Positions 5,663 through 35,372 of a stretch of 64,000 nt of DNA are shown here, one piece after another. Position 1 is the stretch's first letter; every line of letters begins with the position of its first letter. This DNA comes from Lichina pygmaea (lineage: Eukaryota > Ascomycota > Lichinomycetes > Lichinales > Lichinaceae). A program made the translations under genes and the position numbers. The notes under the pieces were generated by a model that saw only the letters and a program-made list of their open reading frames with translations, searched no databases and was not told the DNA's origin. The stretch is from assembly GCA_963422465.1 (NCBI GenBank), contig OY730169.1:4278001-4342000 (forward strand), given 5' to 3'.

Positions 5663-5939
5663 TGTGACAAGGCAATAGCAGAGCAGAACTCAAGCCTAAC
5701 TGATTCAGTAACCTTGACCTGACTTGGCTTGAGACTTGAGACTTGGATTAATGTACAAGACGAAAGACAAGGAAGGAAGAAAAAGAGAAAAGAAGAAGAG
5801 AAGAAGCTGGGGGAGCAGGGGAAGTTCTTATAGACAGGGGATCAGGCAACGGCGGAGCAAACAGGCAACAGTGCAGATGGGACTTCCCGGCAAGGTGCGT
5901 GACTTGTGCCAGATATGCAACTGGGCCAGAACTGTGACA
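5663..5939 (-). repeat. 5' LTR of Gyp1 copy A
   Basis: 277-bp LTR with the same termini as the other Gyp1 LTRs and a single copy of the internal repeat module. The gag leader starts just inside it, on the minus strand. Confidence 0.9.
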
Positions 5940-10103: not shown

Positions 10104-13100
10104 GCTGGCTTGGAGTCAAGGATTTCTTCAACCTGGAACTCTTCATCTGTGTCTTGACCAATGACAGGGCCAGGGTGTTCATTTGATTGGCCAGGGATAG
10201 GATTAGCAGGTGTCAGACGTAGAAGGGAAACGTGAAAGACAGGGTGGATCTTGAGAGTGTGTGGAAGCTCCAGATGGCAGGCACAGCTTCCGACTGTCTT
10301 CAACACCTTGAATGGTCCAATCCACTTGTCGTCAAGCTTTTTGCATGGGTGGTGTGTCCTGATGTTCTTGGTATTCAGCCAAACAAGATCTCCAGTTTGA
10401 TAGGACAGTGACGGGACTTGATGCAAATTGGCAGTGTGAGCTTGAGCTTCCTGGGATAGTTGGAGTTCAGCTTGCAACTGTTCCAGAATCTGTATTATTT
10501 CTCCAGAGATTTCCATAGCATCTTGGTTGCAGGCTTCACTCATGGGTGTGATGCTGAGCCATGGATGGAACCTTTTGTTGGCAAAGAACAGTGACATGCC
10601 AGAGGAATCAGACTGGGAGTTGTTCTGCGTGAACTCTGCCAGAGGAAGCCATTGGACCCAGTCATCTTGGAGATAGTTGACATAGGATCTCAGGTAGTGT
10701 TCAAGCTCCTGATTCTCTTGTTCTGTCTGACTATCTGTCTCTGGGTGGTGTCCTGAGGATAGTTGTAGCATGACATCAAGATGGGCACAAAGTGCTTTCC
10801 AGAATGAGCTGACAAACTGACCTCCTCTGTCTGAGACAATGCTCCTGGGCAAGCCATGGGTACAGACAACAAACTGGATGAACATCCAGACAAGATGCGA
10901 GGTTGTCATCTCAGCACATGGCACAAAGTGGTGTTCTTTGGTGAGACAGTCAGTGATGACCCAGATGTGCTTGGCACCAGGGAAGCAGGCATCTCTTGAC
11001 TTGGGCAAGTCAGTAATAAAATCCATAGCCAGATCCTGCCAACATTGCTGAGGCACAGGAAGAGACAGCAGCTCTCCTTGGTGATTACAGGCAGGCTTTG
11101 CTTGAGAGCAGACATGACAATTCCTGATGTACTACTGTATGATGTTCACTATCTTTGGCCAATAGTACTAACAAGACAGGAGATTGTGGGTTTTGGCAAT
11201 CCCAGTGTGGCCAGCTATTGCTTGGTCATGGGCTTCTTGGAACAGGTGTAGGTGTAGCTCATTGTTCTCAGGGATCCAGAGTCAGTTCTTGTAGAAGAGA
11301 CAGTCATTTTCCAAGCTGCAGTCTGAGAGAGACACTTCTCGACTGTGCCTGACACTATCCCTTAGCATCTGTGACACTGTTGCCACTGGATCACCTTCAG
11401 CAAGGTTGTTATAGGTAGCTTGGATGATGTCTGAAAGAGGTGCAGCATCAGGTTCAGTGTCAACTGGTGCAGCTTCTGAATATCTCAGGATCTGGATGGG
11501 CTTGACTTGAACCTCTGAATGTGCAAGATTCTTGGGCTTGAGGACGACTTGCTCCATGAAGTCTTGACAGGGATCACTGTCTGACGGGAGGTCTTGGGAA
11601 TGTTGAGTGAGGGCATCAGCCTTGCACTGACTGCCTGGACAGTAGCTGATCTTGAAATTGAAGTGTGACAAGAACTCACTCCAACAGGCTTGACAGCGGG
11701 AAAGGTGCTTTGACAACATGAAGTACTCCAAGTTCTTGTGATCAGAGATCACCTTGACAGGTTCTGGAGATTCTTCAAGCTCTGCTCACCATTCTTCAAA
11801 GGCACAGACAATTGCCAGCAACTCCTTGTCGTAGATCTCGTAGTTGCATTCTGCCGGCAGGTGGTGGTGTGACAAGAAGGCAACAGGGCGTAGAACTCCT
11901 TCATGGTCTGGCTGTGACAGGACAGCACCAGAGATGTAGTCAGAAGTGTCAGTCTTAACAACACACTCCTTCTCTGGATCAAAGTGCTGCAGGATGGGTG
12001 CAGTGCTGAACACTTTCTTGATGCTTTCAAACAAGTGCTGCTCTGGGGTTTCCCACTTGAAGGCAATATTCTTCTTGGTCAGAGCTGTGAGTGGGGATGC
12101 AAGCTTGGCAAAGTCTTTGATAAACTGGTGGTAGAAGTTTGCAAAGGCAATGAAGCTCTGCACTTCCTTGAGACTGGCAGGAGGCTTCCACTCCTTGATG
12201 GCGTCAGTCTTGGCTGGGTCTATGCTCACAGATCTGGGTTGGCCATCTTCAGTGGCAGACTGAATGATAAGGCCAAGGTACTTGACTTGATGGACTTCAA
12301 AGTCGCACTTGGAGATGTCAACTTGCAGGCTTGCATCTTGTAGTCGACTGAGAACAAGCTTGACATGCTTCTGGTGTTCCTTGAGTGTCTGACTGTAGAT
12401 AAGGATATCATCCACATAGGCAGTGCCAAAGACGTCAAGGATGTCAGGTCCCAAAACATCATTGATGTAGTTCTGGAACATGCTTGGAGCATTGGCAAGA
12501 CCAAAGGGCATGACAAGGTATTTGTAGAGGCCTGAGCGTGTGCGGAACGCAGTCTTCCATTCTTCACCTTCCTTCATCCGGATACAGTTGAAGGCACCAA
12601 CAATGTCAAGCTTGGTGTACCACACAGCTTTGCAAAGCTGGTCCAACATCTCCTGGATCAGTGGCAGGGGGTAACAGTTCTTGATGGTGATGGTGTTGAG
12701 TGCTCTGTAGTCTACACAGAAACACAATCCACCTCCTGGCTTCTTGACAAAGAGGACTGGTGCAGTAGCAGGTGATGAAGATGCTTGAATGAAGCTCTTG
12801 TTCAGGTTCTCTGTCAGGTACTTCTTGAGAACTTCAAGTTCTTCTCTGCTCATGCTGTACAGAGGTCCAGAGGGTGCCTGGGTTCCTGGTTCCATCTTGA
12901 TCTTGTGGTCAACTCCTGGGCGTAGAGGAGGAAGCTTGTCAGTGTCATCCTTGCTGAAGACGTCCAGGAACTTGTGGTACTGAGCAGGGAGAAGTGTGGC
13001 AGGATCCACATACTTCTTTGGCTTCAACGCCTGCTCAATGTCTCTCAGAGAAACACTGAACACCTGGTGATCTGGCTTGGCAGTAAGGAGAGAAAATGTG

Positions 13101-14638
13101 GCAGCATTGATGGGGATTGGTGTGGCAGAAAGGGGCTTGGGATCCTGAGGCTTTCCAGCAGACATCTTGGCTTCAAGATCCAAAGAGATTGGATAGCTAT
13201 TGTTTGACTTGAGGCATGTGGATCAGCAGTGATCTGACTTGAACATGATTGAGGTGTTTGTCCAATCAATGTGTGGCCCATGCTTCTGGAGCCATGGCAT
13301 CCCCAGAATCACATCATAGTGAAGGCCAGGAGACACAAAGAGAGAGACTTCCTCCTGGTGCACACCATGTGCTGTAGTCATGATTGTCTTGGCGAGATGC
13401 GTGGTTTGTGACATCTTGCCATCAAACAATCACAATGTGTGTGGGTAGGGGAGAGGTTCTTGGTGAAGGGATTGCGCAAAGGAAGCACTAATGCAGCCAA
13501 ATGCTGAACAGCCAGAGTTGATGAGAGTATTGCACTTGAATTTCCCATCTAGGATACAAGGAAGAAGCAAGCACTTGCTGTCCAACTGCTGGTCTGGAGA
13601 CAGATAGCCAACATGGAGATCCTTTTCATGTCCTTGGGCGTGACAATGACCAAGGACTACTTGTTTTCCGACTCTGGAGTAGTCTCAACAGTGGCAGACT
13701 TGGTGGTGGTTACAACAGGCATGCTTTTCACTGGACAGAAGGTTGAGATGTGACCTTGGTTCCCACAGTAGAAGCAGAGGCCTTTGCTTCGGTGATGTTC
13801 TCGCTCTTCTGGTGTCAGCTTAGAGCGGCTGAGATCCATGGTAGGACTTGGTGGCTGTGGTGTGAAGGCTGGCTTGATGAACCCTGACCGTGGAACTGAG
13901 GCTTGGGTGGGAGTTGCTTGACGTGGACGGCAAGAGTTGGCAGAAGTGGCACACAACTGGTTGTCCTGCAGCTGGCATTCCTCAACAAGCTTCTGATAGC
14001 TGATGTCCTTGAGGTTGATGCTGACAAGCTGCTTGGCAAGCTCTTCAGAGACAGCGCATCAAAGATGGCCCTTCAAGGCCTTGTTGTTGAAGCCTGTGCG
14101 TGGAGTATACTGATTGAACTCTGTGAAGAACTTGGCAAAGGAACAGTTGGCCTGACACAAGGTGATGAGCTTCCTCTGAGCTAGGAACTCTGGGTCTGGG
14201 TCGGAGAAGGTGTTCCGGAGATCTTGGACAATGTTGTGCCAGTCAATGTACTGGCCAGCCGTGATCTTAGCTGAGATGTAGGACTGCGCAGTGCCAGTCG
14301 TGCGTGAAAAGACATACGCAATCCGCAATGTTTCCATGGGGTACCGGTCAGTGTTGAGTGTCATCTTGAGTGACAGTGATGTGATGAAGCTCTCAAGCTT
14401 CTCATGCGTGATTTCCGTGTTTCTGCCATCGCCACTGAAGATCTCTGGGTCAACAGTGTGTTCGGACTTGGACTTGGGAGTGGTGTTGGTAGCTTGAATT
14501 CGCATGAACTCTGCAAACATGTTGCGAAGGAACTCATCATTTCCAGTAACTGGCATGGCTTGGTCTGGTTGTTGAGACATGACAAGAACGTGAACATGGC
14601 TTGGTGAAGTGTGTTATGGTTGGGTAGGTCTTTCGTAG

Positions 14639-14957
14639 TGTGACAAGGCAATGGCAGAGCAGAACTCAAGCCTAACTGATCTGGTAACCTTGACCTGACT
14701 TGGCTTGAGACTTGAGACTTGGATTGATGTACAAGACGAAAGACAAGGAAGGAAAAGAGAAAAGAAGAAGAGAAGAAGCTGGGGGAGCAGGAGAAGTTCT
14801 TATAGGCAGGGGATCAGGCAACAGCGGAGCAAACAGGCAAACAGTGCAGATGGGACTTCCCGGCAACGGCGGAGCATACAGGCAAACAGTGCAGATAGGA
14901 CTTCCCGGCAAGGTGTGTGACTTGTGCCAGATATGCAACTGGGCCAGAACTGTGACA
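14639..14957 (-). repeat. 5' LTR of Gyp1 copy B
   Basis: 319-bp LTR with two copies of the internal module. It abuts directly a truncated Gyp1 LTR in the opposite orientation. Confidence 0.9.
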
Positions 14958-18034: not shown

Positions 18035-18254
18035 TGAACTAGGTGAGAAAGAAAATCTCTTGCCAGAAATCCAGATTTTTATTTATTTATTTTTTATTTG
18101 ATTCTTACACTGGTAGTAGCTTTACAGCCATGCAGATCTTCTAGCTAATAGTGAACTCCTTCAGAAAACCTTTGAAGGGATAAAAACTGAAGGCAGGGTG
18201 TGACTAGGGAATGTAACAAAAGGAATCTTGAAGTTTCTGGTAAGAGAAGAGAAT

Positions 18255-21200
18255 CTAGGTATTGGATTGGGAATAGTGGAGTTTGAAAGCTAGATTAAAC
18301 TGGTTTAGTCTTTTCAAAGACATAAACCAGTACAAGAACTTCTGTAGTAGCTCTGGGTTTGAAATAATAGTGGTGAAGTCTTGGGGATTAAAAGAGACTT
18401 GTTGTCTTTGTCTTGAATAAAGAGAGCATGAAGAGGTGATATGTTTTGCAGTTTCTTCTGCTTGGCCACACACACATAGTGGGGTAGGGAAGTCAGGAGC
18501 TCCAGCTCTGAAAAGAAAACTTGCCAGACCAATTCTTCCAGTCCTGATTTGCAGTAGCAGACTTGCCTCAGCTTTCTGTAACTCTTTGTAGAGCTTCAGA
18601 TTGTTTTTGTGTGGCTTTTGACAGAAAGTCTGCCAGCCTGGATAGCTTCTTCTTTTCTTCTCTTCCCATTGGTCTTCCCACTCTTTAGTAAAGAGCTTTT
18701 GTAGTTCTTTCTTTGAACTAGCCTGGTTAGTAGTTATTTGACTTAACCAAGTGAATTTCCACTTAGGAGAGATAGTTGAGGATTCCTTTAAAGGTTTCTT
18801 CAAGAGAGAGGCATAGCTGGAAATAGTGGAAAAGATACTGTCAAGAAAGTATTTGAGAGGGGAGTTTTGAATAGAAGAAAGAAAACAGGCAGTGCAAAAT
18901 TTAAAGTATAGGTCTAGAGGTAGAAGAAAAAGCTCACTCTCTAATAGAAAAGAAGGAGTGGCTTTGAAGGCACCCCCAATAAGTCTTAGGCATCTGTTTT
19001 GAAATGAAACAAGAGAAGAGATATTGGAGGATTTTCTTAGAGGGTTAAACCAGATCCCCACTGCATAGCTCAGTAGAGATCTCAGTATAGCAGTGTACAC
19101 CAGACATGATGTGTGAACTGGAAAGCCCCAAGTAGAATAGGAAGTTCTAGAAAGAGAAGAGAGTGCTTTCTGTGCTTTTTGAAGAATAATCCTCTGGTGT
19201 TTGTGCCAGTGGAGCTTTGCATCTAGGTACACTCCAAGTACTCGCACTTCTTCTTTTGGTTTGAGAATCACATTCCCCAGTCTGAGCTTGAGCTGAAGAT
19301 TGTCTGATCTTCTTCTGGAAAAATGAAGTATTTCATATTTCTCAGGTGAGAAGACCATTCCATGTCTTGCAGCCCAGGATAGACATTTGTGGTGTGTGTT
19401 CTTTAACTTCAGAAGGTTACTTTTCAAGGAGTGACCAAAAGCAAGCAGATTTGTATCATCTGCAAACCCCAGGGCAGATACACCAGAAGAGGGAGTATGC
19501 ACAGTCTCATGCAATTCAGAAATGTAGAATAGAAAAAGAATAGGGGATAATGGAGAACCTTGAGGAACTCCACAATGAATAGGAATAGAATAAGACTCAG
19601 AATCATCAAAGACAAGAGTGGTAGAGCGCTTATCACAGAAGGAGTAGATCCAGGAAGCTAGCCAGGCAGGTATTCCTTTTCTTTTCAGAATTTGCTGTAG
19701 TATCTTGGGGAGAACTCTGTCATAGGCTCCTGAGATATCCAGTGAGAGTAGGGATGCAACCATGCCTTCCTTCCAGACTTTTTCCACTTGGGAGGTTAGA
19801 AGGAAAAGTGCTGCTTCAGTGGATCTTCCTTTCCTAAAGCCCATCTGGATATCTGGCAACAGTCCAGCTTCTTCTGCTATCTTGCTTAGTCTGGCTGCAG
19901 CAATAGCTTCCATCAGCTTGCCTGTTGTGTTTAGCAGAGCTATAGGGCGCCAGGCTTTAGCTTGATTGTAGGTTCTCTTGCCAGGTTTCCTCAAGCAGAC
20001 TGTTTTTGCACTCTTAAATCTTTCAGGGAAGTACTCCAGTTTCCAGCATGTTGAAGTCAGAATAGCTAGAGCTTGGCAGAACCTAGGCCCCAGAGCTCTC
20101 AGAAATCCATTTGGCAGCTTATCTCTCCCTCCTGCTGTGAAAGGTTTCTTCTTGGCCAGAATTTGCTCCACTTCTTCACATGTTACCTCCTGGGAGAGCT
20201 GTATCTCAGAGATAGTCTGGGAGCTTTCTGAGCCTGGTTCTGGAACTAGAGCTTTTGGAAAGAACTGTTGTGAGAAGGCTTTAGTCTTTTCCTCAAAGGT
20301 TTTGGCTATTCCTTCTTGTGTTTCCAGGTCAGGAACCAGAGGAAGATCAGGAGTCTTGTTGGCTTTGGACTTTCCCCACTTTGCAAGCTTCCAGAACTTT
20401 GAAGAGCTGGCCAGCTCATGGATTTGGTGTCTGAAAGTGTTCTGTTTTCCATCTCTGACTGCCTTTTTCTTGAGCTTAGTTGCTTGCTCAAGTTCCTCTT
20501 GACTTGCTTGCCTTTTTTGCACTTTTCTTCTTACTCTTCTTTCCTCTTTAACCTTGTTTTGGATCTCTTGATTCCACCAGGGAACTGAGTGGCCAGATTG
20601 CTTCTGGAGCTGTGTGGATTTGCTTGCTATTTCTTGGAGAAAGTTGTCAAGATACTCCAAGTACTCATCCACTTCATATTTGTCTTGGAAGTGGAAGGGC
20701 AGGTGTAGCTTCTCACACTCTACTCTTGCAAGGTTTGAGTCCAGTGTTCTCCAGTTTCTTTCTGGTTTCCAGATTTTCCTTGGAGGATCCAGGTCCAGGC
20801 AGGTTAGTACAGGTCTGTGGTCAGACCCATGAAAGAACTGAAGAGCCACTTTAGAGAAAATCAGAGAGTTAGAAAGAGAAGAAGAAATAAAAGACAGATC
20901 AATAGAAGAACATGGTTTTTCAGAAAGAGATCTTGCTCTGGTAGGGGTGAAAGGTGCAATAGCTAAATCCAGATTTAAGTCTTTCATTAGGTCTTGAAAC
21001 TTGTTTGCAGTCTCAGAGTACAGTCTTCTTTTCTTTGACCAGTCTGGGTGGTGAAGATTTGAGTCTGTGAGAAGAATATGTTGTCCTTGTTCTTGTAAAG
21101 CATTTTGGAGTAAACAGAGAAGAGCTTCTGATGCCTCTGTGTAGTTTTCTTGACTTGATGGGGTGAAGTAGAGATTATGTACCCAAAGAGAAGTAGAAGA

Positions 21201-21497
21201 GTTTTCCAAGTAGATTTCAAGAGAAACAAAGTCTTTATTCCAGAAGGTAGGATGAAGAGAAGAGAGTTTCAGATTTTTATTAATAAGAAAAAGTGTTCTG
21301 CCAATCTCTGAACAGTAGAGAGGAAGAAAGGAAGAGAAAACAGTTGAAGTGCTTGTTTCTAGGTGAGGGTTTTTCCAGGGCTCTTGAAGTGCAATAATGT
21401 CCACCTCTTGGAGAGCTGAGATTGCTAGCAGTAGCTCTTGGACTGATTGGCTTTTTTGCACATTATACTGGAGAAGTGTCAGCTTTGTGTCTTTCAT
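18255..21497 (-). CDS. LINE ORF2: endonuclease / reverse transcriptase (1080 aa)
   Basis: ORF2 of the intact LINE nicks target DNA and copies the LINE RNA at the nick. Residues about 1-235 are an apurinic-like endonuclease of the exonuclease-endonuclease-phosphatase fold, with IIALQEPW, LLTDSNLHHPDW and GSDHRPV motifs. Residues about 440-740 are the reverse transcriptase, with GVPQGSPLSPILF and the catalytic FADDTNLLAF. The C-terminus (about residues 1005-1025) has a CVCG...H...C zinc-binding motif typical of I/Tad-type elements. I see no RNase H domain between the reverse transcriptase and the C-terminus, although several Tad-clade elements have one. The start overlaps the end of ORF1 by 35 nt in another frame, suggesting reinitiation or a frameshift (inference). 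The protein is a transposon product, not a host gene. Confidence 0.9.
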   Translation of the reverse strand: MKDTKLTLLQYNVQKSQSVQELLLAISALQEVDIIALQEPWKNPHLETSTSTVFSSFLPLYCSEIGRTLFLINKNLKLSSLHPTFWNKDFVSLEIYLENSSTSLWVHNLYFTPSSQENYTEASEALLCLLQNALQEQGQHILLTDSNLHHPDWSKKRRLYSETANKFQDLMKDLNLDLAIAPFTPTRARSLSEKPCSSIDLSFISSSLSNSLIFSKVALQFFHGSDHRPVLTCLDLDPPRKIWKPERNWRTLDSNLARVECEKLHLPFHFQDKYEVDEYLEYLDNFLQEIASKSTQLQKQSGHSVPWWNQEIQNKVKEERRVRRKVQKRQASQEELEQATKLKKKAVRDGKQNTFRHQIHELASSSKFWKLAKWGKSKANKTPDLPLVPDLETQEGIAKTFEEKTKAFSQQFFPKALVPEPGSESSQTISEIQLSQEVTCEEVEQILAKKKPFTAGGRDKLPNGFLRALGPRFCQALAILTSTCWKLEYFPERFKSAKTVCLRKPGKRTYNQAKAWRPIALLNTTGKLMEAIAAARLSKIAEEAGLLPDIQMGFRKGRSTEAALFLLTSQVEKVWKEGMVASLLSLDISGAYDRVLPKILQQILKRKGIPAWLASWIYSFCDKRSTTLVFDDSESYSIPIHCGVPQGSPLSPILFLFYISELHETVHTPSSGVSALGFADDTNLLAFGHSLKSNLLKLKNTHHKCLSWAARHGMVFSPEKYEILHFSRRRSDNLQLKLRLGNVILKPKEEVRVLGVYLDAKLHWHKHQRIILQKAQKALSSLSRTSYSTWGFPVHTSCLVYTAILRSLLSYAVGIWFNPLRKSSNISSLVSFQNRCLRLIGGAFKATPSFLLESELFLLPLDLYFKFCTACFLSSIQNSPLKYFLDSIFSTISSYASLLKKPLKESSTISPKWKFTWLSQITTNQASSKKELQKLFTKEWEDQWEEKKRRSYPGWQTFCQKPHKNNLKLYKELQKAEASLLLQIRTGRIGLASFLFRAGAPDFPTPLCVCGQAEETAKHITSSCSLYSRQRQQVSFNPQDFTTIISNPELLQKFLYWFMSLKRLNQFNLAFKLHYSQSNT

Positions 21498-22884
21498 GCA
21501 GACATCTCAGCATCAAAGATCTTGAAGGAGTTAGCTGGTAGCTTTCCTCCAGAGTTGGCTGATCTTGAAGAAAGAATTTGCACTTCTGGGAGTGCACCTC
21601 TGAGTCTCTCTGAGCTTCTGCTTGGCTCAGCTGTTTTACGTTTTTCCCCCCTGGTAGAGACTGAGAGAGAGGGAAAGACATAACTGGGGGGGGTTGTAGA
21701 GCTGGAACAGAGGTAGCTGTTGGGATCTCATATTTTCCTGGGCGTGTGTTCCATGCTTCTCTTGCCTTCTTGGCTGCTTCCTGGCGTACTGGACAGACAC
21801 TGGCCCAGGCTGGGTGAGCTTCTCTGCAGTTGCAGCATTTTGGCTTGAGAAGCTGTTCAGGAACTTGGCAGGCTCTCCTTTCATGCTGGCCTCCACAGGC
21901 ACCACACACAGCTTTGTTCTTGCAGAAGCGTGCTTGGTGCCTATAGCCAAAGCACTTGAAACATTGTGCAATAACTGTGTCTGCCAGAAAAGGTTCTGCT
22001 TCATGCATCCTGTGCCCCAGCACTAGCCCACTCTCAATCAAAAGATTGGCTTGTTCAGGGGTAGCCAGATCCAGGTGGAGAGAGGTAACTGGCTTCTTTT
22101 GAGCTATAGCCTTCTTAGACCAGTAGGCTCTCAGGATGGTGATTTGCTTGCTCAGAGATGGGTTGCTGTTCTGGATTATCTGGCGGGTTTTCTCCAGGTC
22201 TTCAGGTTGGATATCTTCTGTTCTGACTCCATGGATCAGAACTGGAAATCTCTTGGGCTGGATGGTTGCTTCCTTTGTGAAGATAGCTGATACCCAGGCA
22301 GGGTTTTTCTCTAGGAAGACTTTAGTCTCTTGGCTTTCTGTGTTAATAAGGATATCCCCTGAAGGAAGTTTCCTTACTGCTCTGACCTGCTTGTTGTAGG
22401 GGCTGGGTAGTCTGTCTTGAAGAGTCTGGAAAAGCTGGATGTGAGTTCTATTAGCCATGTCAGGTGGCTGGATACCAGGATGTACAAGAACTTCTTTGAG
22501 AATTCTTGCAGGTAGAGGGATTTGTGCTGGAATAGATTTTTGGACAGCCTGGGCATATGATGGCTTGGCTTCTTGTTTGTCCAGCCGCTTGTTGATATTC
22601 TCCAGCTCCTGGAAGATTCTGTTGGTGAGGCCAGTGGAGCTAGACTGGGCTTCTGTAGGGAAGGAGTTCTTTTTGATATTTTCCCAGCTTTTCAGAATGG
22701 ATTCTGGGACTGGTTGAGTTTTGATCCAGGAGTCTACTAGTTTGTAGTCACTCTGGGGAGCTGGTTGGGGGGTAGGAGAGCTGGACTGGGTGCTAGCCAG
22801 ACTGGGAGCTGGTTGGGAGAGTATAGCTGGTGTAGCTCTGGTGTTACTTTCTGAAAAGGTGGGTTTTTTCTTCTTGGGAGCCAT
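21463..22884 (-). CDS. LINE ORF1: RNA-binding gag-like protein (473 aa)
   Basis: ORF1 of the intact LINE encodes the nucleic-acid-binding protein that coats LINE RNA. The N-terminus is basic and then proline/serine-rich. The middle (about residues 130-290) is well conserved with the decayed copy at 5940-9045 (RAVRKLPSGDI, SLHLDLATPEQANLLI). Three cysteine knuckles follow: CFKCFGYRHQARFC, CGACGGQHERRAC and a third beginning CCNCREAHP. This arrangement is usual for ORF1 proteins of Tad, I and related clades. The start codon at 22884 is followed by a lysine run (MAPKKKKP) and is the first ATG in frame. Upstream lies the 5' UTR with a monomer-like repeat. The reading frame is fully open. Confidence 0.9.
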   Translation of the reverse strand: MAPKKKKPTFSESNTRATPAILSQPAPSLASTQSSSPTPQPAPQSDYKLVDSWIKTQPVPESILKSWENIKKNSFPTEAQSSSTGLTNRIFQELENINKRLDKQEAKPSYAQAVQKSIPAQIPLPARILKEVLVHPGIQPPDMANRTHIQLFQTLQDRLPSPYNKQVRAVRKLPSGDILINTESQETKVFLEKNPAWVSAIFTKEATIQPKRFPVLIHGVRTEDIQPEDLEKTRQIIQNSNPSLSKQITILRAYWSKKAIAQKKPVTSLHLDLATPEQANLLIESGLVLGHRMHEAEPFLADTVIAQCFKCFGYRHQARFCKNKAVCGACGGQHERRACQVPEQLLKPKCCNCREAHPAWASVCPVRQEAAKKAREAWNTRPGKYEIPTATSVPALQPPPVMSFPLSQSLPGGKNVKQLSQAEAQRDSEVHSQKCKFFLQDQPTLEESYQLTPSRSLMLRCLHERHKADTSPV

Positions 22885-23028
22885 GTTAGAGATTGTTTGG
22901 CACTGGTTGGGTGTTTCCTGTCTGCAGAGTACTGCCAGAAAGAAGAGTCACCTGGTTTCCCAGCAGTAATAATCTAGTCCTGGGACCAATCCCCAAGACT
23001 AGACTTTCCTGGGCAGCTTTTTCCAACT

Positions 23029-24575
23029 TTTTTTGATTTGATTCTTACACTGTTTGTAGCTTTACAGCCATGCAGATCTTCCAGCTAATAGTGAACTTCT
23101 TCAGAAAACCTTTAAAGGAATAAAAACTGAAGACAGGGAGGTGACTAGAAAGTGTAGCAAAAGGAAATCTTGTAGTGTCTGGTAGGAAAAGCTTCTAGAT
23201 GTTGGAGTGTGAATAGTGAAGTTTGAAAGCCAGATTAAATTGGTTTAGTCTTTTCAAAGACATAAACCAGTACAGAAACTTCTGTAGAAGCTCTGGGTTT
23301 GAAATAATAGTAGTGAAATCTTGGGGGTTAAAGAGAGCATGTTGTCTTTGACTTGAGTAGAGAGAGCATGAAGAGGTGATATACTTTACTGTCTCTTCTG
23401 CTTGACCACACATGCATAGGGGGGTAGGAAAGTCAGGGACTCCAGCTCTGAAAAGAAAACTTGCTAGACCAATTCTCCCAGTTCTGGTTTGCAGTAGTAG
23501 ACTTGCCTCAGCTTTCTGTAGCTCTTTGTAGAGCTTTAGGTTGTTGTAGTGAGGTTTTTGGCAAAACACCTGCCATCCAGCATAGCCTTTTCTTTTCTTC
23601 TTCTCCCATTGGTTTTCCCACTCTTTAGTAAAGAGTATTTGTAGTTCTTTCTTTGAACTAGCCTGGTTAGTAGTTATTTGACTTAACCAAGTGAACTTCC
23701 AATTAGGAGAGATAGTTGAGTATTTCTTTAAAGGTTTCCTCAGTGAAGAAGCATAGGAAGAAATAGTAGAAAAGGTACTGTCAAGAAAGTCTTTCAGAGA
23801 GGAGGTTTGGATAGAAGATAGAAAACAAGCTGTGCGAAATTTAAAATAGAGATCTAGAGGTAAAAGAAAAAGCTCACTCTCTAATAGAAAAGAAGGAGTG
23901 GCTTTGAAAGCACCCCCAATAAGTCTCAGACATTTGTTTTGGAATATGATAAGAGAGGAAATATTAGAGGATTTTCTGAGTGGGTTGAACCAAATTCCCA
24001 CTGCATAGCTCAGTACAGATCTGAGTATTGCAGTGTACACAAGGCGTGCTGTGAGAACTGGAAAGCCCCAGGTGGAGTAAGAGGTTCTAGAAAGAGAAGA
24101 TAGTGCTTTTTGTGCTTTTTGAAGAATAATTCTCTGGTGTTTGTGCCAGTGGAGTTTGGCATCCAGGTACACTCCCAATACTCGCACTTCTTCTTTTGGT
24201 TTTAGAATCACATTCCCAAGTCTAAGCTTGAGCTGCAGATTGTCTGATCTTCTTCTGGAAAAATGAAGTATTTCATATTTCTCAGGAGAGAAGACCATTC
24301 CATGTCTTGCAGCCCAAGATAGACATTTAAGATGTGTATTCTTCAACTTCAGAAGGTTGCTTTTAAGAGAGTGTCCAAATGCAAGCAGATTTGTATCATC
24401 TGCAAATCCCAGAGCAGAAACACCAGTAGTAGGAGAATGTACAGTCTCATGAAGTTCAGAAATATAGAATAGAAAAAGAATAGGAGACAAAGGGGAACCT
24501 TGGGGAACTCCACAGTGAATAGGAATAGAAGAGGACTCAGAGTCATCAAAAACTAGAGTGGTGGTACGTCTGGTT
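23029..24575 (-). mobile_element. 5'-truncated Tad-like LINE nested in the 5' UTR of the intact LINE
   Basis: Minus-strand LINE beginning in mid reverse transcriptase and running to the 3' tail. An 11-bp duplication TTTTTCCAACT (23018-23028 and 24576-24586) flanks it, and the 5' UTR of the host LINE resumes exactly after it. The remaining frame (24490-23195, 431 codons) is open and about 90 percent similar to ORF2 of the intact LINE. 5' truncation is the common outcome of incomplete reverse transcription. Confidence 0.9.
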
Positions 24576-25720
24576 TTTTTCCAACTAAGCTCTGGGCAAA
24601 GCTAGAAGTATTAACCTAGACTAGGGACCAGACCCCCTATCTAGACTTTCCTTGAGCCAAAGACTCTGCTAGCTCCAGAGTCAGTCAGACTCTAACCATT
24701 CCTCTTATCCTGAGACTCTCTCTCTGAGAAATCCAGATAGGATTCAGAAAAGAAAGATCAACAGAATCAGCACTTTTTCTTCTGACCTTCCAGGTAGAAA
24801 AGATCTGGAAAGAAGGAATAGTTACTAGTCTTCTCTCTCTGCACATCTCTGGAGTCTATGACAGAGTCTTGCCAGAAGTTCTCAGAAAGATCCTGATTAA
24901 GAGAAAGATTCCTAAGTGGTTTATATTCTGGATCTTTTCTTTCACTACTTCACACACTACCTCTCTTGTGTTTGATGACTCAGAGTCCCCCCAGTTCCCT
25001 ATATACTATGGAGTCTCTCAAGGATCATCTTTCTCTCCTATTCTATTTCTTTTCTATATCTTAGAACTGCACAATACTGTACACACTCCTGAGAAAGAAG
25101 TTTCAGCACTTGGTTTTGCAGATAACACCAATCTTCTTGCATTCTCCTCTTTCTTGAAAAGCAACCTTCTCAAGTTGAAGTCTACACATTCCAAATGTCA
25201 GGACTGGGCAAGAAAACATAGTATGAAGTTTACACCTGAAAAGTATAAACTTCTCTATTTTTCTAGAAGAAGAGACAATCTTCAGCTTAGTCTAAGACTT
25301 GGAGAAGTGGTACTTCAACCAAAAAAGAAGTGTGTATCTTGGGACTTTACTTTGACTCAAAACTTGTCTGGAAAAAACATCAAAAAATCATGTCACAGAC
25401 AGTCTTCAAATATTTCTCAGCTTTATCCAGAACAACCTACTCTACTTGAGGACTACCAGTCCTAACAGCATGTTATGTCTACACTGCTATACTAAGATCT
25501 TTTCTTAGCTATGCAGTAGGAGTCTGGTTCAATCTCCAAAAGAAACTCTCTAATATTATTTCATTATCTACTTTCTAAAATAAATATCTAAGAACTATAG
25601 AAGGTGTTTTTAAAGCCACTCCTATTTTCCTACTTGAATCAGAACTATTTCTACCCTCTCTAGACTTATACTTCAAGCTGAGAAAGTATAATTTCTTTCA
25701 TCTTTCTATTCAAACACACT

Positions 25721-25776
25721 GGCCTGCAACAACTCAAACCTCCACATGGTGCAGGCTGGGAACCTCAGGGCAGTTG
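25721..25776 (+). ncRNA. Candidate HDV-like self-cleaving ribozyme at the chimera 5' end
   Basis: The first bases of the insertion can form the nested pseudoknot of hepatitis-delta-like ribozymes. P1 is GGCCTGC (25721-25727) with GCAGGCT (25751-25757), 7 bp with a G-U wobble at the first pair, as in HDV. P2 is CAACT (25730-25734) with AGTTG (25772-25776). P3 is ACC (25738-25740) with GGT (25748-25750) around the 7-nt loop TCCACAT. P1.1 could pair CC (25742-25743) with GG after P1. The candidate catalytic C is 25771. P4 is very short, the weakest point. The predicted cut lies exactly at the target-site junction. Such ribozymes define the 5' ends of several non-LTR elements. Confidence 0.45.
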
Positions 25777-28195
25777 ATGGCGGGTGGCTTCCCAGACTGT
25801 TTGTAGTCGCTGCACTAAGAGCTAATCAAGTCACCAGTTGAGCTGCTGGTGTTGCGGAGTGACAGGCTACTGGAGGTGTTGCGCAGACACCCTGGACACC
25901 TCTGTGAAACAGCTACAGCAGAACAGAGGACTGCAACCAAGCTTGGGAGATGAAAACCACCTGACAGACAACTACTGTGTACACTACAGCCTGAAGCCAG
26001 CCCCACAGCTGGTGGATGTGAAGTCTAGATGTCTGATAGAGCACCTCTGGAGTAGTCAAGAGGAGTTCTTGTCAAGTCACCCTCCTAGCAGAGTCTCCAG
26101 CTAACATGTGAGGATCTGCTAGGGGGGGGAGTGGCCTTGGCACCACAGTGTTGTTAATCAAACAGGGACCACCTGTTAAAGAAGGAGAGTGGTTGTATGA
26201 GGAGATGTCACTACTCCAGTGCCTAAGGGCCGTGTGATAGCCAAAGTCCTGGCTTGATGGTTTTGCCTAAGGCCTTGCCACAAAGTCTCTTTGTACAATC
26301 CACAATCTGGGGCTGGGGGACTGGGTTATCCAGTGGGCCAACAGGTGCAACCGAGGCCCCACAGGTGACAGTGGACCAAGGAAAACTCCTCCCTACTTGG
26401 TTAGTGGGCTGGAAAGGCAGCCCTGCAGGTGCTGGCACAGCCTGCAGGGTCTCTAAGGCCTGTGAGGCATGGTCAGCCTTTGTACAAGAGATCTGCGAAG
26501 GTAACACAAAACAGTTAACAACTGTGAGGTGTGGCATATAATGGCAGTGACAGAGGTAGGGCCTGGGCCTACTACAAGACTGTCTATATAGCCCAAGAAG
26601 ACAGATGCGCATGCTGGTTTGTATGGAGTGCAGGCTTAGACTGCAAACAACAAGCTCAGGGAGCAAACTACAGTTGGAGTGTGGGCTCTGGGCTGGTGAC
26701 CCAGCACTCTGAAGCAGGATCCCAGGGGTGAGCATGTACAGTGGAGTGCAAGAGACTTCAGGACTGTGGGAAAGCGTGGTAGAGACTCTGTGGGGGGGTG
26801 CCAACTCTACACTATGTTCTGGCATAGTACGACTGTGGCTAAAAAGCAACCTTCTGAAGTTGAAGAACACACACCTCAAATGTCTATTATAGGCTGCAAG
26901 ACATGGAATAGTCTTCTCTCCTGAGAAATATGAAATACTTCATTTTTCCAGAAGAAGATCAGACAATCTTCAGCTTAAGCTCAGACTGGGGAATGTGATT
27001 CTAAGACCAAAAGAAGAAGTGTGAGTATTAGGAGTGTACCTGGATGCAAAACTCCACTGGCATAAGCACCAGAGAATTATTCTTCAAAAAGCTCAGAAAG
27101 CACTTTCCTCTCTTTCTAGAACTTCATATTCTACTTGGGGTTTCCCAGTCCTCACATCATGTCTTGTGTACACTGCAATACTCAGATCTTTACTGAGTTA
27201 TGCTGTGGGGATCTGGTTCAATCCTCTAAGAAAATCTTCTAATATCTCTTCTCTTAGCACATTCCAGAACAAGTGCCTGAGACTTATTGGAGGTGCCTTC
27301 AAAGCCACTCCATCTTTCTTATTAGAGAGTGAGCTTTTTCTTTTACCTCTAGATCTCTATTTCAAATTTCGCACAGTCTGTTTTCTCTCTTCTATTCAAA
27401 CCTCCTCTCTGAAAACACTTCTGGACAATATCTTTTCCAATATCTCCCACTATACCTCTTCTGTGAAGAAACCTTTAAAGAAATCCTCAACTATCTCCCC
27501 TTATTAGCAGTTCACTTGGTTAAACCAATTAACTACTAACCAGGCTAGTTCAAAGAAAGAACTACAGAAACTCTTTGTTAAAAAGTGGGAAACCCAATAG
27601 GAGGAGAAGAAAAGAAGAAGCTACTCTGGGTGGCAGGTGTTTTGCCAAAAGCCTTACCACAACAACCTGAAGCTCTACAAAGAGCTACAGAAAGCTGAGG
27701 CAAGTCTACTACTACAAACCAGAACTGGGAGAATTGGCCTGGCAAGTTTTCTATTCAGAGTGGGAGTTCCAGATTTTCCTACCTTTTTATGTGTCTGTGG
27801 CCAAGCAGAAGAGACAGTGAAACATATCACCTCTCCATGCTCTCTTTATTCAAGTCAAAGACAGCAAGCTCCTTTTAATTCTCAAGATTTCACTTCTATT
27901 ATTTCAAACCCAGAGCTTCTACAGAAGTTTCTATACTGGTTCATGTCTTTGAAAAGACTGAACCAGTTTAATCTGGCTTTCAAACTCCACTATTCACACT
28001 CTAATATCTAGAAGTCTTCTTCCTACCAGTCACTACAAGATTTCCTTTTGCTACATCCTCTAGTCACCCCCAGTCTTCAGTTTCTATTCCTCTAAAGGTT
28101 TTCTGAAGAAAATCACTCTTAGCTAGAAGATCTGCATGGCTGAAAAGCTACTATCAGTGTAAGAATCAAATAAAAGAAATAAAATAAAATAAAAA
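25721..28195 (+). mobile_element. Chimeric LINE: unrelated 1.1-kb 5' segment fused to a LINE 3' part
   Basis: One insertion, flanked by a 13-bp duplication ATTCAAACACACT (25708-25720 and 28196-28208) inside the older plus-strand LINE. Bases 25721 to about 26839 resemble no LINE or LTR element in the window. From about 26840 to 28195 the sequence is the C-terminal half of LINE ORF2, the 3' UTR and an A-rich tail (open stretches 27034-27507 and 27637-28011, interrupted by stops). Both parts lie within the same target duplication, so they inserted together. This fits template switching during reverse transcription, as known for the MINE element (WEIRD plus MGL) of Magnaporthe. The fusion point has a short A-rich microhomology. 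Confidence 0.85.
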
Positions 28196-29036
28196 ATTCA
28201 AACACACTACCCAACTCTTCTTCTACACTTCTCCACAAAATACACAGTCAAATTTCTCTCTATGTTTCTTCTCTCAGAACTGCACCAAAGTCTCTGACAA
28301 CTATTTCTCTGAACTGGAGAATAGTCTGGCTGGAACAACTAACTACTAACCAAGACTTCTCAAAGAAACATCTACAGGAGGTTTTCCACAAAGAATAGAA
28401 AGCCAGATGGCAGGTAAGCAGAGGAAATTGTTCTGCTATTTGGGACATGTTCACCAGAAGACCACAGAAGAAAAACCTCAATATCTTCAAAAATTTAAGA
28501 AAAGCTAAGTCTAGTCTATTCCTTCAAATTCTGTCAGCAAGGATAGGACTGGCCAGTTTTCTTTTCAGAGTAAATATCCCAGACTTCAACTTCTCTCTAT
28601 ACACCTGTGGTTTTGGAGAAGAAACAGTCCAACACATCACTTTTTTCTGTAACAAATTTTCAAACCAAAGACAACAAGTCCAATTCTCTCTACAAGATTT
28701 TCTATCTATCTTATTCTCCTCCAAGCTACTTCCTAAACTTCTTTTCTGGTTTATGTTTTTGAAAAGACTTGACCAGTTCAACCTAGCCCACCAACTCTCT
28801 TTCTGAGCTCTACCAAGTCAACTATTTGTTTTAACAAATAGCTACATATACAAATTTCCTTAGCTACTGTATATTCCTCAAGATTTTCTCTAGTCTCTCC
28901 CAAGCTCCAGTTTTTATTCCTCGAAAGGTTTTCTGGAGAAACAAACATGTACCTAGAAGTTCTGCATGGCTCTACAGCTAAATCAGTGTAAGAATAAAAT
29001 AAAATAAAATAAAATAACAAATAGATCTCCCAGAAT

Positions 29037-30661: not shown

Positions 30662-33600
30662 AAAGACAGGGTGGATCTTGAGAGTGTGTGGAAGCTCCAG
30701 ATGGCAGGCACAGCTTCTGATTGTCTTCAACACCTTGAATAGTCTAATCCACTTGTCGTCAAGCTTTTTGCATGGGCGGTGTGTCCTGATGTTCTTGGTA
30801 TTCAGCCAAACAAGATCTCCAGTTTGATAGGATGGTGACAGGACTTGATGCAAATTGGCGGCATGAGCTTGAGCTTCCTGGGATAGTTGGAGTTCAGCTT
30901 GCAACTGTTCCAGAATCTGCGTCATTTCTCCAGAGATTTCCATAGCATCTTGGTTGCAGGCTTCACTCGTGGGTGTGATGCTGAGCTGTGGATGGAACCC
31001 TTTGTTGGCAAAGAACAGTGACATACCAGAGGAATCAGACTGGGAGTTGTTCTGCGTGAACTCTGCCAGAGGAAGCCATTAGACCCAGTCATCTTGGAGA
31101 TAGTTGACATAGGATCTCAGGTAGCGTTCAAGCTCCTGATTCTCTTGTTCTGTCTGACCATCTGTCTCTGGGTGGTGTCCTGAGGATAGTCGTAGCATGA
31201 CATCAAGATGGGCACAGAGTGCTTTCCAGAATAAGCTGACAAACTGACCTTCTCTGTCTGAGACAATGCTCCTGGGCAAGCCATGGGTACAGACAACAAA
31301 CTGGATGAACATCCAGACAAGATGCGAGGTTGTCATCTCAGCACATGGCACAAAGTGGTGTTCTTTGGTGAGACAGTCAGTGATGACCCAGATGTGCTTG
31401 GCACCAGGGAAGCAGGCATCTCTTGACTTGGGCAAGTCAGTAATGAAATCCATAGCCAGATCCTGCCAACATTGCTGAGGCACAGGAAGAGACAGCAGCT
31501 CTCCTTGGCGATCACAGGCAGGCTTTGCTCAAGAGTAGACATGACAATTCCTGATGTACTGCTGTATGATGTTCACTATCTTTGGCCAATAGTACCAACA
31601 AGACAGGAGATTGTGGGTCTTGGCAATCCTAGTGTGGCCAGCCATTGCTTGGTCATGGGCTTCTTGGAACAGGTGTAGGTGTAGCTCATCATTCTCAGGG
31701 ATCCAGAGTCAGTTCTTGTAGAAGAGACAGTTATTTTCCAAGCTGCAGTCTGAGAGAGACACTTCTCGACTGTGCCTGACACCATCCCTTAGCATCTGTG
31801 ACACTGTTGCTACTGGATCACCTTCAGCAAGGTTGTTATAGGCAGCTTGGATGACATCTGAAAGAGGTGCAGCATCAGGTTCAGTGTCAACTGGTGCAGC
31901 TTCTGAACATCTCAGGATCCAGATGGGCTTGACTTGAACCTCTGAATGTGCAAGATTCTGGGGCTTGAGGACGACTTGCTCCATGAAGTCTTGACAGGGA
32001 TCACTGTCTGACAGGAGGTCTTGGGAACATTGAGTGAGGGTGTCAGCCTTGCACTGACTGCCTGGACAGTAGCTAATCTTGAAATTGAAGTGTGACAAGA
32101 ACTTGCTCCAACAAGCTTGACAGTGGGAAAGGTGCTTTGACCACATGAAGTACTCCAAGTTCTTATGATCAGAGATCACCTTGACAGGTTCTGGAGATCC
32201 TTCAAGCTCTGCTTGCCATTCTTCAAAGACACAGACAATTGCCAGCAACTCTTTGTTGTAGATCTCGTAGTTGCATTCTGCCGGCAGGTGGCGGTGTGAC
32301 AAGAAGGCAACAGGGTGTAGAACTCCTTCATGATCTGGCTGTGACAGGACAGCACCAGAGACATAGTCAGAAGTGTCAGTCTCAACAACACACTCCTTCT
32401 CCAGATCAAAGTGCTGCAGGATGGGTGCAGTGCTGAACGCCTTCTTGATGCTTTCAAACAAGTGCTGCTCTGGGGTTTCCCACTTGAAGGCAATATTCTT
32501 CTTGGTCAGAGCTGTGAGCAGGGATGCAAGCTTGGCAAAGTCTTTGATGAACCAGCAGTAGAAGTTTGCAAAGGCAATGAAGCTCTGCACTTCCTTGAGA
32601 CTGGTAGGAGGCTTCCACTCCTTGATGGTGTCAGTCTTGGCTGGGTCTATACTCACAGATCCAGGTTGGCTGTCTTCAGTGGCAGACTGAATGATGAGGC
32701 CAAGGTACTTGACTTGATGGACTTCAAAGTCACACTTGGAGATGTCAACTTGCAGGCTTGCATCTTGTAGTCGACTGAGAACAAGCTTGACGTGCTTCCG
32801 GTGTTCCTTGAGTGTCTGACTGTAGATAAGGATGTTATCCACATAGGCAGTGCCAAAGACGTCAAGGATGTCAGGTCCCAAAACATCATTGATGTAGTTC
32901 TGGAATGTGCTTGGAGTATTGGCAAGACCAAAGGGCATGACAAGGTATTCGTAGAGGCCTGAGCGTGTGCGGAACGCAGTCTTCCATTCTTCACCTTCCT
33001 TCATCCAGATACGGTTGAAGGCACCAACAATGTCAAGCTTGGTGTACCACACAGCTTTGCAAAGCTGGTCCAACATCTCCCGGATCAGTGGCAGAGGGTA
33101 ACAGTTCTTGATGGTGATGGTGTTGAGTGCTCTGTAGTCTACACAGAAACGCAATCCACCTTCTGGCTTCTTGACAAAGAGGACTGGTGTAGCAGCAGGT
33201 GATGAAGATGCTTGAATGAAGCCCTTGTTCAGGTTCTCTGTCAGGTACTTCTTGAGAACTTCAAGTTCTTCTCTGCTCATGCTGTACAGAGGTCCAGAGG
33301 GTGCCTGGGTTCCTGGTTCCATCTTGATCTTGTGGTCAACTCCTGGGTGTAGAGGAGGAAGCTTGTCAGCATCATCCTTGCTGAAGATGTCCAGGAACTT
33401 GTGGTACTGAGCAGGGAGAAGTGTGGCAGGATCCACACACTTCTTTGGCTTCAACACCTGCTCAATGTCTCTCAGAGAAACACTGAACACCTGGTGATCT
33501 GGCTTGGCAGCAAGGAGAGAAAATGCGGTAGCATTGATGGGGATTGGCGTGGCAGAAAGAGGCTTGGGATCCTGAGGCTTTCCAGCAGACATCTTGGCTT

Positions 33601-35098
33601 CAAGATCCAAAGAGATTGGATAGCCATTGTTTGACTTGAGGCATGCAGATCAGCAGTGATCTGACTTGAACATAATTAAGGTGTTTGTCTAATCAATGTG
33701 TGGCCTGTGCTTCTGGAGCTATGGCATCCCCACAATCACATCATAGTGAAGACCAGGAGACACAAAGAGAGAGACTTCTTCCTGGTGCACACTATGTGCT
33801 GTGGTCATGATTGTCTTGGCGAGATGTGTGGTTTGTGATGTCTTGCCATCGAACAATCGCAATGTGCGTGGGTAGGGGAGAGGTTCTTGGTGAAGAGATT
33901 GCGCAAAGGAAGCACCAATGCAGCCAAATGCTGAACAGCCAGAGTCAATAAGAGCATTGCACTTGAATTTCCCATCTAGGATACAAGGAAGAAACAAGCA
34001 CTTGCTGTCCAATTGCTGGTCTGGAGACAGATAGCCAACATGGAGATCCTTTTCATGTCCTTGGGCGTGACGATGACCAAGGACTACTTGTTTTCCGACT
34101 CTGGAGTAGTCTCAACAGTGGCAGACTTGGTGGTGGTCATGGTGGTGGCAACAACAGGCATGCTTTTCACTGGACAGAAGGTTGAGACGTGACCTTGGTT
34201 CCCACAGTAGAAGCAGAGGCCTTTGCTTTGACGATGTTCTTGCTCTTCTGGTGTCAGCTTAGAGCGGCTGAGATCCATGGTAGGACTTGGTGGCTGTGGC
34301 GTGAAGGCTGGCTTGATGAACCCTGGACGCAGAACTGAAGCTCCTGACCGTGGAACTGAGGCTTGGGTGGGAGGTGCTTGATGTGGATGGCAAGAGTTGG
34401 CAGAAGTGGCACGCAACTGGTTGTCCTGCAGCTGGCATTCCTCAACAAGCTTCTGATAGCTGATGTCCTTGAGGTTGATGCTGACAAGCTGCTTGGCAAG
34501 CTCCTCAGAGACAGTACATCAAAGATGGCACTTCAAGGCCTTGTTGTTGAAGCCTGTGTGTGGAGTATACTGATTGAACTCTGTGAAGAACTCGGCAAAG
34601 GAACAGTTGGCCTGACGCAAGGCGATGAGCTTCCTCTGAGCTAGGAACTCTGGGTCTGGGTCGGAGAAGGTGTTCCGGAGATCTTGGACGATGTCGTGCC
34701 AGTCAATGTACTGGCCAGCCGTGATCTTAGCTGAGATGTAGGACTGCGCAGTACCAGTCGTGCGTGAAAAGACGTACGCAATCTGCGATGTTTCCCTGGG
34801 GTACTGGTCAGTGTTGAGTGTCATCTTGAGTGACAGTGACGTGATGAAGCTCTCAAGCTTCTCATGCGTGATTTCCGTGTTTCCACTATCGCCACTGAAG
34901 ATCTCTGGGTCAGCAGTGCGCTTGGACTTGGACTTGGGAGTAGTGTTAGTAGCTTGAATTCACATGAACTCTGCAAACATGTTGTGAAGGAACTTGTCAT
35001 TTCCAGCAACTGGCATAGCTTGGTCTGGTTGTTGAGACATGACAAGGATGTGAACATGGCTTGGTGAAGTGTGTTATGGTTGGGTAGGTCTTTCGTAG

Positions 35099-35372
35099 TG
35101 TGACAAGGCAATGGCAGAGCAGAACTCAAGCCTAACTGATTCAGTAACCTTGACCTGACTTGGCTTGAGACTTGAGACTTGGATTGATGTACAAGATGAA
35201 AGACAAGGAAGGAAGAAAAAGAGAAAAGAAGAGAAGAAGCTGGGGGAGCAGGAGAAGTTCTTATAGGCAGGGGATCAGGCAACAGCGGAGCAAACAGGCA
35301 ACAGTGCAGATGGAACTTCCCGGCAAGGTGCATGACTTGTGCCAGATATGCAACAAGGCCAGAACTGTGACA
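35099..35372 (-). repeat. 5' LTR of Gyp1 copy C
   Basis: 274 bp with a single internal module. The gag leader follows on the minus strand. Confidence 0.9.

Follow-up and report, generated by a model that had tools for sequence, protein, structure and literature searches.

The window, a 64,000-nucleotide stretch of Lichina pygmaea contig OY730169.1, carries a unit (25721–28195) that is very probably a MINE-type chimeric retrocopy, formed when a LINE reverse transcriptase switched templates to a 1.12-kb RNA with a putative ribozyme at its 5' tip. This chimera is one of a large family. The joint insertion of its two parts, the recurrent ends of the first, the variable points at which LINE sequence is entered, the several LINE partners and the different 5'UTRs of LINE-A and LINE-B can be read from the genome sequence itself. 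The features of the window copy are as follows.

24727..25707, + strand: host of the insertion, another LINE copy, ~78% identical to LINE-A; resumes at ~28263–29013
25708..25720, no strand: left target-site duplication ATTCAAACACACT, identical to 28196–28208
25721..26838, + strand: 1.1-kb non-coding segment of subfamily 1, GGCCTGC...GACTGTGG, with ends common to 40 full copies; interpreted as the RNA to which the template switch was made
25721..25832, + strand: predicted HDV-like ribozyme fold, decayed (RF00094, 28.1 bits, E 0.22 at 25719–25793)
25721–25727/25751–25757, + strand: P1 of the ribozyme fold
25731–25736/25827–25832, + strand: P2 of the ribozyme fold, 3/6 pairs lost in the window copy
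25738–25740/25748–25750, + strand: P3 of the ribozyme fold
about 25764–25773/25810–25819, + strand: P4 of the ribozyme fold
25821–25826, + strand: joining strand GCTAAT of the ribozyme fold
26839..28195, + strand: 5'-truncated LINE 3' half with A-rich tail; LINE-B relative, ~87% identical over the first kb
28196..28208, no strand: right target-site duplication ATTCAAACACACT, identical to 25708–25720

The two copies of the 13-bp duplication enclose the unit exactly, the right one directly following the A-rich tail, and the proposal of the initial annotation that a single event placed both parts is borne out by this shared duplication. The 1.1-kb part had also been said to match nothing else in the window, and BLAST indeed returned one match there, the segment itself. 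The LINE part begins at 26839 ± 1, the C at 26839 being attributable to either part. Its frames at 27025–27507 and 27601–28011 gave no Pfam match, so its assignment to a LINE rests on DNA similarity to LINE-B. In LINE-A and LINE-B themselves, the long first frame likewise has no Pfam match, while the second contains the Exo_endo_phos_2 and RVT_1 domains. No coding potential stood out in the segment, whose + strand stop-to-stop frames span 50–104 aa; a 238-aa frame on the − strand crosses the junction with the LINE part.

Other repeats occupy much of the surrounding sequence. A LINE-B copy on the − strand (18075–23028), with two long stop-to-stop frames of 494 and 1083 codons, is 97–99% identical over most of its length to the LINE at locus L026, and partial LINE copies adjoin at ~23028–24562 and ~24576–24726. 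Three copies of one repeat, ~95% alike, lie at 1095–5893, 10104–14866 and 30662–35372; by eye only, their frames resemble Ty3/gypsy pol (RT, integrase-like). CpG observed/expected is mostly 0.0–0.5 in the first 42 kb of the window, which are rich in repeats, and 0.8–1.3 elsewhere, and CpG decay in the window is confined to repeats.

Searching the genome (32.47 Mb, 8 contigs) with 25721–26839 revealed a family of well-defined copies. The best 40 of 304 candidates scored were 92–94% identical to the query (window copy apart), and 38 of them started at query bases 1–3, with one at 16 and one at 117. Pattern searches detected 258 segment 3' ends (≤1 mismatch) and 243 5' ends (≤2 mismatches), whereas the reversed-pattern controls gave 0 in each case. 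The 3' end of the window subfamily was fitted by 123 of the 258. A second subfamily, mostly 1124 bases long and ~78% identical to the first, starts and ends like it, with GGCCTGC and ACTGTGG. All 40 full copies gathered for the comparison share a common first base, 36 reading GGCC and 4 AGCC; some of them were excised by the start motif, and the independent evidence for the start comes from the similarity search, the subfamily comparison and the 5'-end pattern count. The 3' end of the presumed RNA is nearly as exact as its 5' end.

Outside CpG-type columns, mean pairwise difference was 2.1% in subfamily 1 (26 copies), 1.6% in subfamily 2 (14 copies) and 12.9% between them. The repeats are strongly CpG-depleted, with 10 CpG retained in the window copy and 82 in the best-kept subfamily-2 copies. 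Two contig ends examined carry CCCTAA/TTAGGG repeats, and segment copies L079 (C1:1-2300) and L080 (C6:3694700-3696575) lie at two chromosome ends, <2 kb from telomere repeats; the LINE of L080 is cut short, and TTAGGG repeats follow directly. Judged from sizes only, contig C8 (~48 kb by subtraction) may represent the mitochondrial genome, in which case the chromosomes would number seven.

Joint insertion of segment and LINE between target duplications, as in MINE, was seen beyond the window. Among 22 copies with longer flanks, 10 (window included) showed an A-rich stretch directly followed by a 13-base duplication (≤1 mismatch), against 4 of 458 when flanks were swapped between loci. The same test found no A-tail-linked duplication in the other 12, possibly reflecting later insertions, decay or short flanks.

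The sequence following the segment was analysed in 134 junction records (133 loci, one recorded twice as L013 and L025) of the 258 3' ends, a sample drawn from the best matches and perfect 3' ends and hence under-sampling old copies. LINE sequence followed in 128 records: LINE-A, LINE-B or close relatives in 99, and GC-rich LINE-C-type sequence in 29. LINE-C is a label used here for sequences placed by mutual DNA overlap or by translated similarity to LINE-A and LINE-B (L101 by translation and later overlap with L156), and it may comprise more than one family. One record continued into a truncated subfamily-2 segment, and five (L079, L085, L108, L113, and L144) were unplaced; at L079, a LINE-B-like 5' end lies ~250 bases beyond the junction, and at L108/L140 the segment is 5'-truncated, its first base being 597, and leads into DNA that shows no similarity to LINEs. 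At one locus (L132/L133/L164), subfamily 1 is followed by subfamily 2 from base 46 and then by LINE ORF1-like sequence; we read this as a double switch, like the tripartite element of Magnaporthe.

The 80 well-placed copies entered LINE sequence at 65 distinct positions. Copies thus combine a full-length 5' part of constant ends with a LINE part cut at variable points, the arrangement that characterizes MINE-type elements. According to the initial annotation, chimera formation would be supported if the 1.1 kb, searched alone, turned up joined to LINE 3' ends at varying points or as a separate donor copy. The former was found in abundance; a separate donor copy was not found in the part of the genome examined, there being no clear solo donor among the 134 junction records.

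It is very unlikely that the 1.1 kb is the true 5'UTR of a LINE and that the copies are internally deleted, SIDE-type elements consisting of a 5' ribozyme and a 3' end. Such elements exist: HDV-like ribozymes are known at non-LTR 5' ends, and SIDEs are described as uniting such a 5' ribozyme with a 3' end (PMC3414825). Moreover, two copies (L015 and L059) are joined just upstream of LINE-A ORF1. The 5' ends of the LINEs themselves, compared for LINE-A and LINE-B, speak otherwise. At L026, the sequence past the segment is LINE-B 5'UTR, and ten LINE-B 5' ends were fetched for comparison (the best of 40 listed among 388 candidates). Nine reach a common start ~90 bases above the L026 junction, and the tenth (L048) falls ~15 bases short of it; the DNA preceding them is unrelated. 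Nine of ten LINE-A 5' ends, fetched from 41 places listed, run into a different 5'UTR of ~575 bases; only L059, whose junction point is the same as that of L015, carries the segment. By BLAST, the segment was thus absent from 19 of the 20 fetched LINE-A/LINE-B 5' ends, and its last 25 bases occur in only 2 of the 41 LINE-A places listed.

HDV matches were likewise lacking in the seven LINE 5' ends scanned (four LINE-B and three LINE-A), so that the ribozyme of a full-length LINE of the genome, from which a SIDE would take its own, was not found for LINE-A and LINE-B. The segment also has several LINE families as partners, with many joining points and no dominant fixed downstream sequence among the 134 junctions. 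For LINE-A and LINE-B, the reading as a 5'UTR with internal deletion is mostly refuted by the 19 fetched 5' ends. We had looked for precisely this case, an ordinary LINE 5' part, and found unrelated 5'UTRs instead; to LINE-A and LINE-B, the 5' part is foreign. Together with the variable LINE joins, these separate 5'UTRs support the chimera reading put forward in the initial annotation, in which an unrelated 1.1 kb and a LINE 3' half were inserted as one.

A very improbable alternative holds that the chimera itself is the transposon, having arisen in one or a few instances and thereafter spread as a unit. In its favour, some junctions recur, the strongest at LINE-B 3745 in five copies and another at 5351–5352 in 4 loci. 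However, the 134 records contain 118 distinct junction strings, and the five 3745 copies do not form a single clade in the star-like tree, their distances (0.4–2.9%) straddling the subfamily mean of 2.1%. This suggests that LINE-B 3745 is a hot spot of repeated jumps, although the tree carries little signal and some amplification as units is possible.

The junction sequence itself carries a signature. The segment ends in GTGG, and the base after it may come from the segment or from the LINE. A close LINE reference was available for 44 distinct sites; the LINE sequence there opens with C in 30, T in 13 and A in 1, i.e., a pyrimidine in 43 of 44 (p ~2e-12 vs 0.495), and the second was C in 28, T in 11 and A in 5; the two bases preceding the LINE point were often C and T (21 and 20 of 44). 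Across the 118 distinct junction strings, the first two bases were CC in 59, TC in 22, CT in 20 and others in 17. In Table 3 of the Magnaporthe study, the sequence preceding the switch point most often closes with CC, followed by TC and CT (PMC2104539). The pyrimidine pair is thus common to MINE and the present chimeras, although the side to which the bases are assigned differs, and it points to the same kind of event. It also points to either a preferred leaving point of the reverse transcriptase or a match of 1–2 bases with the end of the acceptor RNA, such as a possible 1–2 base C match with a GTGGC(C) end. Two specific ideas were rejected: a tRNA-like CCA end, as the third base showed no A excess at the 44 sites, and microhomology with the GTGG end, as the base before the LINE point was G in only 4 of 44.

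These junctions also bear on whether the join was made at the RNA level, by trans-splicing or ligation to LINE fragments before ordinary reverse transcription. The nearly constant 3' end of the segment and the pyrimidine pair that usually opens the LINE side would suit such a join, but the LINE side lacks a splice-site pattern, with bases −2 and −1 mostly CT or A rather than AG. We know of no enzyme that suggests itself for the reaction, and we consider this origin highly improbable.

The segment seems to begin at the predicted cleavage site of an HDV-like ribozyme. In a cmscan of the window, RF00094 (HDV_ribozyme) was the best match, at a sub-threshold score; its model base 3 falls on the segment's first base. 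Five of seven loci scanned gave 26.8–35.5 bits in the same register as the window copy, whereas L003 and L004 gave no RF00094 match at E ≤ 5; better-kept copies reached 41.7 and 42.3 bits, the match starting at the same base. Across the genome, 85 RF00094 matches were obtained at E ≤ 10 (best 86 of 1614 candidates scored), the best at 43.9 bits (E 6e-4), and none reached the Rfam gathering score of 50 bits. A comparison with the list of 3' ends was possible for 42 matches, those on C1, C2 and the part of C3 that was listed. For 35 of them, a perfect 3' end is listed at a distance of one element length; as the list holds perfect 3' ends only, the remaining 7 may belong to copies whose ends are altered. 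The ribozyme core, scanned for exact occurrences in viral_contigs and genome_contigs, gave 0 matches.

Well-kept copies can be folded into nested P1, P2, P3 and P4 helices with a J4/2 strand GCUAA, as in HDV-like ribozymes. Their P1 reads GGCCTGC/GCAGGCT, P3 ACC/GGT and the joining strand GCTAAT, while P2 reads GACTCG/CGAGTC in subfamily 1 and GACTCA/TGAGTC in subfamily 2. The last P2 pair is G-C in 21 of 26 subfamily-1 copies (A-C in 5) and A-T in all 14 subfamily-2 copies; this two-sided helix change lends weak support, because it involves only one pair and both changes are of the CpG-decay type. P2 is often broken in subfamily 1: in 20 of 26 copies the next-to-last pair (15-107) is disrupted, which is what CpG decay would produce, and in 15 of 26 pair 11-111 is. 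The window copy, with three of six P2 pairs lost, probably carries a dead ribozyme.

Divergence between the subfamilies outside CpG-type columns was 2.0% over the first 60 columns, compared with 8–20% over columns 181–840. By 60-column blocks, it was 2.0%, 8.1% and 4.2% in the first three, 7.6–25% in the remaining ones and 1.2% in the last few columns, which indicates that the 5' part (the ribozyme and somewhat beyond) and the 3' tip are the most constrained. Position, score and constraint thus support a ribozyme-like start. Neither this start nor the second subfamily could have been recognized in the window by itself.

The exact ends, together with the failure to see a solo gene, might also suggest that a single ribozyme cuts both ends of a circular or viroid-like RNA, but this is not supported: an exact tandem dimer was not found in a search allowing no mismatches, which decayed dimers would escape (two places fitted a loose pattern, with unrelated-looking spacers), and the fold looks branched rather than rod-like, with a stability moderately above that of shuffled sequences (4 copies with 40 shuffles each; z −2.4 to −4.5 for the + strand, −1.7 to −2.6 for the − strand).

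In the template-switch reading that we favour, a LINE reverse transcriptase would start target-primed copying at the 3' end of LINE RNA, leave that RNA at a pyrimidine-rich point, jump to a discrete 1.12-kb non-coding RNA and copy it from its 3' end to its 5' end, after which the hybrid cDNA would integrate between the 13-bp duplication. Since no donor gene was found, we can only infer the discrete RNA; the same goes for whatever makes its 3' end. If the putative ribozyme at the start of the RNA cuts there, self-cleavage would explain the exact 5' end of the segment and would leave that end shielded, and the stable fold may protect the RNA and favour full-length 5' junctions. Jumps of non-LTR reverse transcriptases between RNAs are described in vivo for R2 with U12 and tRNA (PMC3414825), L1 with U6 (PMC4476161) and MGL with WEIRD (PMC2104539). 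For R2, an HDV-like ribozyme is reported to cut at the 5' junction (PMC3774820), and a 5' HDV-like fold is described as improving insertion from R2 templates, probably by RNA protection (PMC11331408).

A more tentative extension, possible but doubtful, is that the 1.12-kb RNA parasitizes the template switch itself, multiplying only as a second template of LINE reverse transcriptases. Without a solo gene, the RNA would derive from its own chimeric copies, the 5' ribozyme freeing it from read-through transcripts. The subfamilies have diverged yet kept the ribozyme and both ends, and several LINE families are used, which fits selection of the parasite type.

The parallel with the MINE element of Magnaporthe (WEIRD fused to MGL), drawn in the initial annotation, holds closely for the architecture as described, down to the junction pyrimidine pair. 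WEIRD is a full-length non-coding RNA of 1113 nt at the 5' side of MINE (Gogvadze 2007, PMC2104539), and both systems join a ~1.1-kb non-coding RNA at the 5' side to a 5'-truncated LINE at the 3' side, with target duplications of 10–20 bp in MINE and 13 bp here (PMC2104539). In both, LINE sequence is entered at variable points, some of them hot spots, the junction shows a CC/TC/CT pair, a tripartite case occurs and no solo gene was found (PMC2104539). The scale differs, with 258 3' ends here and 31 MINEs in Magnaporthe, as do the partners, several LINE families here as opposed to one LINE and a SINE (PMC2104539). Compared by description, two RNA subfamilies and a predicted HDV-like ribozyme fold at the 5' end distinguish the present elements (PMC2104539); the main text of the MINE paper never mentions a ribozyme (PMC2104539). 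The feature that is new here, supported by the sequence comparisons above, is that the segment appears to begin at the cleavage site of such a fold.

U6 snRNA has known genes and is ~0.1 kb long, whereas the acceptor here is 1.12 kb, its gene was not found and its 5' end is ribozyme-like. Mammalian U6 snRNA-L1 chimeras otherwise resemble the present ones in that an RNA is added to a LINE by template switching (PMC4476161). In the hybrid R2/R1 SIDEs of Drosophila, too, an HDV-like ribozyme at the 5' side is connected with the 3' end of a LINE, and the R2-U12 and R2-tRNA template jumps, in vivo jumps to structured RNAs, can be likened to the present case (PMC3414825). In Drosophila, however, the ribozyme belongs to the LINE, whereas here it belongs to an RNA absent from 19 of 20 LINE-A/LINE-B 5' ends, and the join point varies widely, unlike that of the R2/R1 SIDEs (PMC3414825).

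In fungi, 230 HDV-like ribozymes have been described in 26 species in variable gene contexts, and the two that were assayed both cleave (PMC5640933). The variant ribozymes of that study and the fold predicted here share an extra base between P2 and P3 (A here), but the cleavage-site pair is C-G in the former and G-U here (PMC5640933). The word 'retrotransposon' is absent from the main text of that paper (PMC5640933), and within the literature covered, which took in few of the subscription journals, no publication was found that joins HDV-like ribozymes with fungal LINE chimeras.

The family described here provides a second, much larger natural data set for LINE template switching in a fungus, with 258 3' ends and several LINE partners. 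It links two literatures, those of MINE chimeras and of fungal HDV-like ribozymes of unknown role, and offers a proposed answer to what WEIRD-like RNAs are, namely RNAs with a putative self-cleaving 5' end. Why one RNA is a preferred jump target becomes testable, given that a 5' HDV-like fold is described as raising R2 insertion efficiency (PMC11331408). If the WEIRD of Magnaporthe also starts with such a ribozyme, RNAs of this kind would be old and widespread in fungi.
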